DNA of 64,000 nt, taken from contig UCAG01000008.1 in assembly GCA_900470285.1 (NCBI GenBank), forward strand, positions 1 to 64,000. The letters are read 5' to 3'. A program made the position numbers and the translations under genes. The notes under the pieces are model-generated. The model ran no database searches and had not been told where the DNA came from. It worked only from the letters and a program-made list of their open reading frames with translations. This DNA is from Hyphomicrobiales bacterium. Lineage in GTDB: Bacteria; Pseudomonadota; Alphaproteobacteria; Rhizobiales; Rhizobiaceae. Below, in pieces: positions 5,036 to 9,101 of this stretch (position 1 is its first letter; each line of letters starts with the position of its first letter).

Positions 5036-5275
5036 CTATCGAAAACTTCCGGTTTTGTGGTTTCTGTTCTGCCAGTACCGGTTACGCATGCGCGGCGCCA
5101 TAAACCAGGCGATAAATGGTGTAATCAGAAAACTGCAGCCGATAACCAGAGGAATAAGATATTTGGCATTTTGTGCCAGATCAGGGATTGTGAGAACGAT
5201 GATCATCCCAATTCCGAAAAGAACTGCGTTAATCATCAGGCTGAGTAAAACGGCAATCTGAAAACGAGTGGACAT
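5036..5275 (-). CDS. Small two-TM membrane protein, copy 1 of a tandem pair
   Basis: A 79-residue protein with two membrane helices (about residues 8-31 and 38-58) and a basic, polar C-terminus (RMRNRYWQNRNHKTGSFR). It matches the next gene upstream (5492-5689) in the pattern IVLTIPDLAQ...LITPFIAWFMAPRMR, so the two are diverged tandem duplicates. The start at 5275 is chosen because the AGGGAGG upstream is correctly spaced for it; a 9-codon longer start exists. No named family is recognised. Confidence 0.75.
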   Translation of the reverse strand: MSTRFQIAVLLSLMINAVLFGIGMIIVLTIPDLAQNAKYLIPLVIGCSFLITPFIAWFMAPRMRNRYWQNRNHKTGSFR

Positions 5276-5491
5276 TTCCTTGCCTCCCTTATGCTCTGTC
5301 ATATCAACGTCACCACAAAGAAATGGTTCCGGTGATATGGTTCTCAGGGCAAGATCTGAGGAGCAATATCAGGATAAATCAAGTATTTCAGGCAAGCAGA
5401 AATTTAGCAAGTGATTGCTGTTATGCTCTCACACTCTTGATGCATATTATGCAGATGTAATATTTATGCTTCATCTGCAAATTACAGAGCC

Positions 5492-5689
5492 TTACCGTTG
5501 TATGCGGGTTGCAACATACCATCCGATAACCGGTGTGATGAGCAGCGCTGCACCGACAACCGCCAGCATCGGATAAACAGGTTTTTGCGCCAGAGAAGGC
5601 ACTGTCAGAACGACAATGAATCCTGAACCGACCAGAACAATAAATGCGATTGAGCCGATCATTGATGCCAGATGGAAATTAGTCGACAT
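5492..5689 (-). CDS. Small two-TM membrane protein, copy 2 of a tandem pair
   Basis: A 65-residue protein with two membrane segments (about residues 9-29 and 40-59) and an Arg-rich end (ATRIQR). A GGAGGG Shine-Dalgarno precedes the ATG at 5687-5689. It shares the FIVVLTVPSLAQ and LLITPVIGWYVA core with the protein at 5036-5275. About 215 bases separate the two genes, enough for separate promoters. Function unknown. Confidence 0.72.
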   Translation of the reverse strand: MSTNFHLASMIGSIAFIVLVGSGFIVVLTVPSLAQKPVYPMLAVVGAALLITPVIGWYVATRIQR

Positions 5690-6927: not shown

Positions 6928-7875
6928 ATGTTGGTACTGATGCGTATTTCAAAAAAGACGTCTGAACTATTTTATCTCATTGCATTTCTTGGCAGTTTTT
7001 TAGCGATGCAGCTTTATGGAGTGACCCGTACAATGGCGGCAGAGCAGGGTGATCCGGTGACTTCAGTTTTTGATATGCGTGCAAACGGAATTGATTACCG
7101 GATTTTTGTTGCCGAGCCAAAAACTGCTGACAATGGCAAACCTATGCCGGTCATCTATATGATTGACGGTAATTCGACCTTTCCGATGGCTGTGGATGTG
7201 GTGAAAAAAAGGCCGCAATTGCGCGCGCTTCTTGTCGGTATTGGTTATCCGACACAATCACGCGAAGATATTGTGCGCTCCAGATATTATGATCTGACAC
7301 CGCAAACACCTGCCGAACTGATCCCTTCACGCGGAAATGATGCTGATCTGCCGCGTACCGGTGGCAATGCCGCATTCCTGAATTTCATTGAACAGCAAGT
7401 GAAGCCGGAAATAGAACGGCGCTTTGCCGTTGATAAAAACAATCAGACCCTGTTCGGCCACTCCCTCGGGGGCTTATTCACGCTGCATGCGCTTTTCAGT
7501 GAAAGAGGAAGCTTTCAGACTTATAGCGCCGCAGATCCGTCTGTCTGGTGGAATAACCGCTCAGTTCTGAACGAGAAGGATCGTTTCATTGAGCAGGCAA
7601 CAGAGACGGGCAAGCCGGTCAAAGTGCTGATCGAAACGGCAGGCAAGTCAGTGATGCGTGAGGGCGTTGACAAGGATCGTGCAGCGCAGTTGAAGGCATT
7701 GCGTGGCGGCCCGAATGGCAGGGATATTTATCAGGAGTTGGTTGCGTTGCCTGGCGTTTCAGCAAGCTTCCATCAGTTTGCCGGTGAAAGCCATGGATCA
7801 ATGCTGCCTTATGCCGTTGAAGATATGCTGCGTTTTGTACTGGAAGATGTAAAGCCGGTTCAGCCGCCGGAGTAA
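6928..7875 (+). CDS. Secreted alpha/beta hydrolase, IroE/esterase D-like
   Basis: A 315-residue serine esterase with an N-terminal hydrophobic anchor or signal (about residues 12-30). The nucleophile elbow GHSLGG places Ser179, and ESHGSM near the C-terminus supplies the probable catalytic His. The arrangement resembles the enterochelin/salmochelin esterases (IroE, Fes family, PF00756), which hydrolyse siderophores or other esters in the periplasm; no siderophore genes are nearby. ATGs at 6928 and 6940 are both possible starts. It converges with atpB, and a stem-loop (7861-7885) spans its stop codon. Confidence 0.85.
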   Translation: MLVLMRISKKTSELFYLIAFLGSFLAMQLYGVTRTMAAEQGDPVTSVFDMRANGIDYRIFVAEPKTADNGKPMPVIYMIDGNSTFPMAVDVVKKRPQLRALLVGIGYPTQSREDIVRSRYYDLTPQTPAELIPSRGNDADLPRTGGNAAFLNFIEQQVKPEIERRFAVDKNNQTLFGHSLGGLFTLHALFSERGSFQTYSAADPSVWWNNRSVLNEKDRFIEQATETGKPVKVLIETAGKSVMREGVDKDRAAQLKALRGGPNGRDIYQELVALPGVSASFHQFAGESHGSMLPYAVEDMLRFVLEDVKPVQPPE

Positions 7876-7900: not shown

Positions 7901-8650
7901 TTAATGTGACGGATGCAATGCATCATTCAGATACATGCAAGTGAGCATGGTGAAGACATAAGCCTGAATCACTGCCATCAGAAATTCGAGGGCTGTGATA
8001 CCAACTGTCATTGCCAGTGGCAGAATAGCGGTGATAACGCCCAATGTGCCAAGGCCTGTCAGGGAGACAACAAATCCTGCGAAAACTTTCAGCGTAATAT
8101 GTCCTGCAAGCATAACGGCGAAGAGACGAACCGAATGGCTGACCGGTCTTGAGAGAAAAGACATAATCTCAATCGGTACAATAATCGGCGCCAGAATAAG
8201 CGGCACGCCTGACGGCATGAAAAGGCGGAAAAATTTGGTTCCGTTACGTACAAAGCCATAGATTGTCACGGTCAGGAAGACAGTCATGGCAAGACCGAAT
8301 GTTACAATAATATGCGCTGTTACAGTGAAGGCATAAGGGAACATTCCGAGCAGATTGGCCGTGAGAATGAACATGAAGAGGGAAAAGACCAGCGGAAAGA
8401 AACGTCTGCCTTCTTCACCGGTATTGTCCCGTAGTGTCGTGGACACAAATTCATATAAAATTTCGGACGAGGATTGCCAGCGGTCGGGAATCAGAGTTCT
8501 GCCTCGTGCTGATAAAAACAGATAGGCACCGGCACCGATTGTGGCAATCAGCATGAACAGAGCTGAATTGGTAAAAGCAATCTGAAAACCGCCGACTTCA
8601 CCAAATTCCGCCAGTGGTTTGATTTGAAATTGTTCAATTGGCCCGGCCAT
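7901..8650 (-). CDS. atpB: F-type ATP synthase subunit a, solitary gene
   Basis: A 249-residue membrane subunit that forms the proton half-channels of F0 against the c-ring. It has the length and hydrophobic pattern of the family, the essential arginine (Arg175 in [12 protein letters not shown]) and the conserved C-terminal [21 protein letters not shown] helix. The Asn usual in the LFANM motif is Val179 here. In Brucellaceae atpB normally lies in atpI-atpB-atpE-atpF2-atpF. Here neither side carries another atp gene: downstream is a convergent esterase and upstream a DUF465 gene. So this is either a displaced gene or a second, diverged copy. Confidence 0.93.
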
Positions 8651-8783
8651 ATGATGTACTCCCTGACAAACGAGGTCGTCCCCGTGGGTTACACCGGCGC
8701 AGGTCGTCCTGCGCTATGTGCTGGTGGCACAGTAGATCGATTCGGACGGGACTTGCCATCAATTGTCGAAATATTTGGCAGGC

Positions 8784-8824
8784 ACAAAAAAGAGCATTTT
8801 CAATATATGAGATTGAAAATGCTC
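8784..8824 (-). terminator. Intrinsic terminator of the DUF465 gene
   Basis: A 13-bp perfect stem (8792-8804 with 8812-8824, GAGCATTTTCAAT and its complement) is followed on the minus strand by TTTTTTG. Between it and atpB (8651-8783) lies the presumed atpB promoter region. Confidence 0.85.
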
Positions 8825-8858: not shown

Positions 8859-9101
8859 TCAGGCCTGCTGGCTGAGTGCCTGTTCAATCTCGTCTTTCAA
8901 TGCAAGACGACGCTTGCGCAGAGCTGTTTCATTGTCCTGACTGGTTGGTTCAATCTTTGTCTCTGCACGGTGAATCTGATCATTCACGTCGTCATATTCC
9001 TCAAGCACTTTGGCAAAGCGCGGATCAGCGGCTTTCAGGGCATGAATCTCATCCAGTTTGCCCGGAAATTCTTCGCCAAGTGTATGCGGTGTGTTGGACA
9101 T
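8859..9101 (-). CDS. DUF465 (YdcH-like) small helical protein
   Basis: An 80-residue cytoplasmic, highly charged protein with a coiled-coil pattern. The FPGKLDEIHALKAADPRFAKVLEEYDDVNDQIHRAE core and the EIEQAL end are characteristic of DUF465/YdcH. A GGAAGG Shine-Dalgarno precedes the ATG at 9099-9101. The molecular function of the family is not established. It has its own terminator and so is probably not cotranscribed with atpB. Confidence 0.88.
   Translation of the reverse strand: MSNTPHTLGEEFPGKLDEIHALKAADPRFAKVLEEYDDVNDQIHRAETKIEPTSQDNETALRKRRLALKDEIEQALSQQA

Follow-up and report, generated by a model that had tools for sequence, protein, structure and literature searches.

A paralogous ATP-synthase a-subunit gene with a Guanidine-II riboswitch and an altered arginine site in Hyphomicrobiales

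Why would a bacterium keep a gene for the a subunit of its ATP synthase apart from the other F0 genes, and with a substitution close to the essential arginine? The question is raised by a 64,000-nucleotide stretch of DNA (hereafter, the window) from a Hyphomicrobiales bacterium, a Pseudochrobactrum close to P. saccharolyticum, contig UCAG01000008.1, in which one gene, here named atpB2, encodes a protein 100% identical to one of Pseudochrobactrum saccharolyticum CCUG 33852. A preliminary description, made from the sequence alone, had reported a full-length AtpB that retains Arg175, has Val instead of Asn four residues further on, and is flanked by an esterase and a DUF465 gene with no adjoining F0 gene. 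All of this held. AtpB2 matches PF00119 at 214.9 bits (cut-off 33.9) and also exceeds the cut-offs of the NCBIfam models NF004482 (365 against 225) and TIGR01131 (222.5 against 102.6); Arg175 is kept, Val179 follows it, and no F0 genes adjoin atpB2 in the window (Table 1).

Table 1. Features at and around atpB2 in the window, and the ChaA-like gene of the same genome
Feature	Position	Strand	Basis or remark
atpB2, paralogous F1Fo ATP-synthase a subunit	7901..8650	minus	ATG start, 249 aa ORF
Shine-Dalgarno-like AGGGAG of atpB2	8659..8664	minus	read from sequence
Guanidine-II (mini-ykkC) riboswitch, RF01068	8671..8713	minus	35.6 bits, gathering score 32
Terminator-like hairpin and T run after the DUF465 gene	8792..8824	minus	consensus match only
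Putative esterase (PF00756)	6928..7875	plus	flanking, outside the system
DUF465 gene (PF04325)	8859..9101	minus	flanking, outside the system
ChaA-like gene, contig C9 of the same genome	L210 3741-4997		riboswitch at L210 5057-5098; NCBIfam match below equivalog cut-off

The preliminary description left two readings side by side, either an extra a subunit that differs in its proton or ion path, or an F0 operon split in this lineage, and only the first of these stood. Another atpB was found in the same genome (C19:93017-93649), in a gene order that, as read from the translations, runs atpI-like gene, atpB, atpE and two b-type subunit genes, followed by a ribonuclease-HII-like gene on the opposite strand. 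AtpB2 is 60% identical to this operon AtpB, and the c subunit (PF00137) occurs once in the genome, on another contig than the window and inside the operon. The split-operon alternative is refuted because the operon is complete, and the operon atpB likewise rules out that atpB2 is the sole copy in its normal neighbourhood, the case that the description itself had named as contrary to its proposal. A simple synteny break would account for the position of atpB2 outside the operon, yet the operon has its own atpB and AtpB2 forms a separate clade (see below), and we give this explanation next to no credence. The other reading, in which atpB2 encodes an additional a subunit whose ion path is changed, gains support from the atpB in a normal operon together with the changed residue beside the arginine. 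Both atpB copies are present in six of the seven genomes of the genus Pseudochrobactrum, those at least 90% complete; the seventh, 61% complete, has neither.

Two features had escaped the preliminary description: a fixed histidine, His172, three residues before the arginine, and a Guanidine-II riboswitch, in whose light the atpB2 gene takes on another meaning. The riboswitch was the one RNA that Rfam detected at gathering scores over the window; it consists of two hairpins with ACGA loops and lies 20 bases from the atpB2 start codon. In the predicted ligand-free fold of the leader, the GGG of the Shine-Dalgarno sequence pairs with the linker between the hairpins (z -2.1; 7 of 200 shuffles fold as well), and the consensus fold of 27 leaders contains the two hairpins only, with no common anti-Shine-Dalgarno helix. 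Given the terminator-like hairpin after the DUF465 gene, the riboswitch and atpB2 would form a unit of their own; three such terminator-like sites were found in the region, against 1.1 expected.

We then asked how tightly the riboswitch is tied to atpB2 elsewhere. Among 49 whole genomes, one of them the window's and 48 traced from the loci described below, each carries exactly two PF00119 genes; RF01068 (matches with E up to 1e-3) preceded just one of the two PF00119 domains, at a distance of up to 600 bases, in 47 cases, neither in two and both in none. Rfam alone, run on 33 loci (31 outside the 49-genome set, plus L126 and L097), placed RF01068 upstream of atpB2 in 29 and detected no element there in L056, L058, L097 and L127. 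A model of our own, built from an alignment of 35 elements in which 92.3% of cells are paired, 9 of 13 pairs are changed on both sides and the loops read ACGR, found the element upstream of atpB2 in the window and in 76 of 80 loci, L127 included; 21 of these 76 elements were in the model's training set. The same model found it at 0 of 92 canonical atpB loci, where two weak matches (E 0.16 and 0.68) stayed below 16 bits. No locus was chosen by its RNA, and four loci outside the 80 (L221, L223, L225 and L226, the last a Phyllobacterium plasmid) all carry the element. Guanidine control of atpB2, as predicted from these leaders, is thus a proposal strongly supported by comparative genomics. The Guanidine-II class is described as guanidine-specific (PMC7266159; this and the other papers cited here by accession are represented by excerpts).

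The association has its exceptions. No intact hairpin pair was seen in the leaders of three Pseudochrobactrum-type records (L056, L057 and L058) and of Shinella daejeonensis (L097), all of which have an intact atpB2 despite the missing riboswitch. The three Pseudochrobactrum-type records seem to have lost it while atpB2 is under purifying selection, so control would have changed there. One of the three, L058 (JAHREI010000002.1), is labelled Bacillus subtilis SK6B4, carries Pseudochrobactrum-like DNA and looks mislabelled or contaminated. In many loci, namely all but the Pseudochrobactrum/Brucella-type ones, a longer stretch of leader, up to ~270 bases, separates element from start codon, so switching may differ in those loci.

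The loci come from a scan for relatives over the contigs of 84,980 species, which found 201, and of which the best 80 (L054-L133) were examined. These best 80 of 201 belong mostly to Brucellaceae, Rhizobiaceae and Phyllobacteriaceae (Hyphomicrobiales), with others in Kaistia, Bosea, Afipia, Tardiphaga and one Reyranella; one atpB2 copy, in Phyllobacterium sp. T1293, is plasmid-borne. A motif search, its motif being one without a positive control, detected no atpE near atpB2 in the 80 loci, and a different motif detected an atpE-like frame downstream of 87 of 89 canonical copies, the exceptions being L009 and L194, the latter of which ends near a contig edge. The canonical set comprises 91 loci that gave 89 proteins (L024 and L204 were dropped, with no motif match), to which L003 was added to make 90. 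Brucella thiophenivorans (L100) was kept in the locus counts and left out of the protein counts; its atpB2 is frame-shifted, by real loss or sequencing error, with the riboswitch and the sugE-like gene apparently intact.

In a tree of 170 proteins, AtpB2 (79 proteins and that of the window) and the 90 canonical copies split on one branch with an SH-aLRT of 98, and the AtpB2 clade persisted when the 19 signature columns described below were removed; both trees were quick ones, built without bootstrap. The Pseudochrobactrum operon copies cluster with the operon copies of Brucella genomes, and therefore the operon atpB looks like the vertical copy. AtpB2 is under purifying selection, with dN/dS of 0.01-0.08 in six usable pairs, values that are rough for the three pairs with dS of about 1 or more (a further pair, L059/L062, was dropped for a frame offset). 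A strict DNA pattern of the signature matched six genomes of the order, the window's among them, out of 397, and in a class-wide sample of 385 the window's genome only; both figures rest on one pattern and are lower bounds. Of the five other order-wide matches, L222 and L224 are not counted as independent of L107 and L119. With so few matches, the distribution of AtpB2 is patchy, as judged from this pattern. Genomes of three other genera of the family (G027, G031 and G033) hold a second, shorter PF00119 match of ~150 bits, which is probably of the N-ATPase type and not AtpB2.

What, then, distinguishes AtpB2 from the operon copy? Residues are also given in E. coli a-subunit numbering, on a reference sequence whose letters agree with the residues named in PMC8754430. 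The arginine itself (E. coli R210, Arg175 in the window) is identical in 79/79 intact AtpB2 and 90/90 canonical proteins, as are the equivalents of E196, S199, S206, E219 (His), H245 (Glu) and Q252. AtpB2 is thereby like the F-type a subunit in this arginine, the residues E196, S199 and S206, the His/Glu pair and Gln252, as it is in family and length. It is unlike AtpB in lying outside the atp operon, behind a riboswitch and in a clade of its own, and in having Val for Asn214, His for Leu207 and Met for Ile248. All mapped polar half-channel residues are kept except N214, which is Val (Val179) in all 79; among the 90 canonical copies this position is Asn in 84, as the preliminary description had expected, and Ser in six. 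The six with Ser are the Pseudochrobactrum operon copies only (L003 4907-5677 and L039-L043), which read RLFASM in 6/6. His172 (L207) is likewise found in 79/79 AtpB2, against Leu in 83 and His in seven canonical copies, and Met225 (I248) in 79/79, against Val in 87 and Ile in three; Ile228 (L251) is found in 75/79, against Leu in 90/90. In total 19 positions passed the signature filter. The conservation of Val179 and His172 in 79/79 intact proteins and the low dN/dS rule out a pseudogene or a chance motif, and AtpB2 is confirmed as a second ATP-synthase a subunit encoded by a real gene.

N214 and Q252 are neighbours of R210, where the proton input channel ends (PMC8754430). As shown by the alignment, the Asn to Val change takes away a hydrogen-bonding side chain and the Leu to His change brings in a basic one. 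A spare subunit behind a guanidine switch, combined with a change beside the key arginine, suggests that the cell can refit its motor as guanidine builds up. We thus arrived at the hypothesis, to which we assign a probability of roughly 0.5, that the product of atpB2 is an alternative a (stator) subunit, induced by guanidine, that tolerates guanidinium and replaces AtpB in the existing motor.

According to this hypothesis, rising guanidinium would bind the Guanidine-II riboswitch of the leader and free the ribosome-binding site, as expected from the riboswitch class, in which guanidinium switches translation on (PMC12186494). AtpB2 would then be made and, with only one c-subunit gene in the window's genome, stand in for AtpB at the normal c-ring. 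It would still move protons, because the arginine is kept along with every mapped half-channel residue but one, and the pocket around the arginine is rebuilt by the two substitutions. The most likely purpose would be keeping guanidinium, the smallest mimic of an arginine side chain, out of the a/c site, so that ATP synthesis would continue while SugE/Gdx and other pumps clear the guanidine. Both the inhibition of Fo by guanidinium and the entry of AtpB2 into Fo are inferred from sequence. The resistance step in particular draws on where the fixed changes lie and what they do chemically, on the neighbouring genes and on PMC8873251. In that paper amiloride and one derivative act as inhibitors of ATP synthesis in vesicles from mycobacteria and as competitors of DCCD at the c-ring, and acylguanidine is treated as an arginine mimic. 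The full chain, in which guanidinium directly poisons Fo and cells swap in a subunit whose arginine pocket ignores it, is one that we advance tentatively, at somewhat less than even odds.

Several observations count against the hypothesis. The intact but riboswitch-less atpB2 noted above occurs in three more Pseudochrobactrum records and in Shinella daejeonensis, and in the window atpB2 stands alone, with no adjacent sugE/gdx, while the single SMR gene of its genome lies at neither of that genome's two riboswitch matches. Several of the 19 signature positions lie away from the arginine, and hydrophobic residues occur at position 214 elsewhere, in Toxoplasma and Thermus (PMC8754430). Finally, the main acylguanidine is described as weak on the ATP synthase, and sterics are argued to admit certain guanidine mimics only (PMC8873251).

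Since the altered position is part of the proton path too, a retuned proton flow fits as well. In this main rival, AtpB2 is guanidine-induced but its altered input channel gives FoF1 another pH dependence, rate or reversibility, which lets the cell keep proton motive force and internal pH in balance while Gdx brings protons in; Gdx imports two protons per guanidinium exported (PMC12186494), and E. coli N214L shifts pKa values upward (PMC8754430). The genes that share the riboswitch speak for it too: a ChaA-like cation/proton antiporter gene lies upstream in 10/80 loci and a divergent MrpF gene in 5/80, each with its own element as judged by position (10/10 and 5/5). The window's genome has a second Guanidine-II element (31.1 bits, below the gathering score) before the ChaA-like gene of Table 1. 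The ChaA-like and MrpF genes share guanidine clusters in Agrobacterium-type loci. Retuning by itself leaves the Leu207 to His change and the duplication of a whole subunit unexplained, and it shares all comparative evidence with the shielding of the arginine site; we regard it as possible, though unlikely.

The E. coli mutants bear on a further alternative, in which AtpB2 conducts protons poorly and acts under guanidine stress as a brake or decoy that reduces their flow through Fo. Substitutions of N214 cut ATP-coupled proton conductance, and N214L breaks the proton chain in simulation (PMC11121307), as a brake would have it. The N214V, L, Q and E strains, however, lose pumping and yet grow on succinate (PMC11121307), and AtpB2 keeps all other mapped path residues in 79/79, which makes a brake improbable.

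Among the neighbours of atpB2 are genes for proteins like SugE/Gdx, a guanidinium-exporter family: in 30 of the 80 loci, Pseudochrobactrum not among them, a SugE/Gdx-like gene comes next after atpB2 on the same strand. Between the two genes, 23 of the 30 loci have a riboswitch element at E up to 0.02, and two others have one at E 0.3-0.6. Three of these SugE/Gdx-like proteins were scanned, one of which scored above the NCBIfam SugE cut-off (129.2 against 126) and two just below it (116.3 and 121.2). Organotin or quaternary-ammonium resistance, an idea raised by SugE, was set aside upon the finding of the riboswitch. Nine extra riboswitch sites were also recorded, two before PACE-like genes, three before SMR genes (one of these profile-scanned) and two before ChaA-like genes (L210 and L211), with no gene named behind L212 and L218. 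The PACE-like genes, of the chlorhexidine efflux type, lie behind Guanidine-II elements at L213 (G070:C6:7906-7954) and L216 (G096:C1:68050-68099); the L213 protein, the single one of the two scanned, matches PF05232.

These PACE-type sites, like the action of acylguanidines on mycobacterial Fo (PMC8873251), would suit a reading in which the real threat is a larger guanidine-bearing Fo inhibitor (an alkylguanidine, a biguanide or a natural product), sensed by the riboswitch or arriving with guanidine, and AtpB2 is the insensitive target. The Guanidine-II class tolerates some analogues. We consider this reading doubtful, given a riboswitch class described as guanidine-specific (PMC7266159) and an exporter family, SugE/Gdx, that exports guanidinium. 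The riboswitch and exporter context, together with an a-subunit change at the ion site, could also be taken to mean that AtpB2 turns FoF1 into an ATP-driven guanidinium pump. The lost polar ligand and the gained basic residue should disfavour a cation, though, and the single c subunit of the window's genome is unaltered, so that we hold a pump to be very improbable.

How does a guanidine-induced stator subunit compare with known systems? Like the N-ATPase, an alternate F1Fo, AtpB2 is a second a subunit beside the standard one in the same genome; unlike it, AtpB2 comes without companion subunits and scores 74.7 bits against TIGR03306, under the cut-off of 302.1, and N-ATPase identity was rejected. 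The N-ATPase comes as a whole operon. With the pairing of a Guanidine-II riboswitch and a SugE/Gdx exporter, atpB2 shares the aptamer class RF01068 and, in the loci counted above, the sugE-like gene that follows; the gene under control differs, being a motor subunit and not an exporter or degradation enzyme. The nearest likeness in arrangement is to Na+-I riboswitches (PMC9971707), also cation-sensing and placed before ATP-synthase genes, but there the genes encode ATP synthase complexes that use the sensed ion, whereas here a single spare subunit is controlled and the ligand is guanidinium. No earlier description was found in the open-licence literature as excerpted, though a prior listing in primary gene lists is possible, and the excerpts of PMC12186494, PMC9971707, PMC12342949, PMC7266159 and PMC7736828 mention no guanidine-controlled atpB. 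A review on guanidine, likewise excerpted, names chaotropic damage and export.

Guanidine riboswitches are widespread, and a conserved stator subunit controlled by guanidine directs attention to one specific, directly testable target, the a/c interface of Fo. If the hypothesis is true, guanidine would have in Fo a main physiological target, and cells would respond to it by target replacement as well as by export and degradation. AtpB2 is also an experiment of nature in the residues that can change next to the essential arginine while the motor stays under selection.

Elsewhere in the window, two adjoining genes on the minus strand (5036-5302 and 5492-5689) encode small membrane proteins, with no Pfam match for either, that are paralogues with 44% identity over 64 aa.
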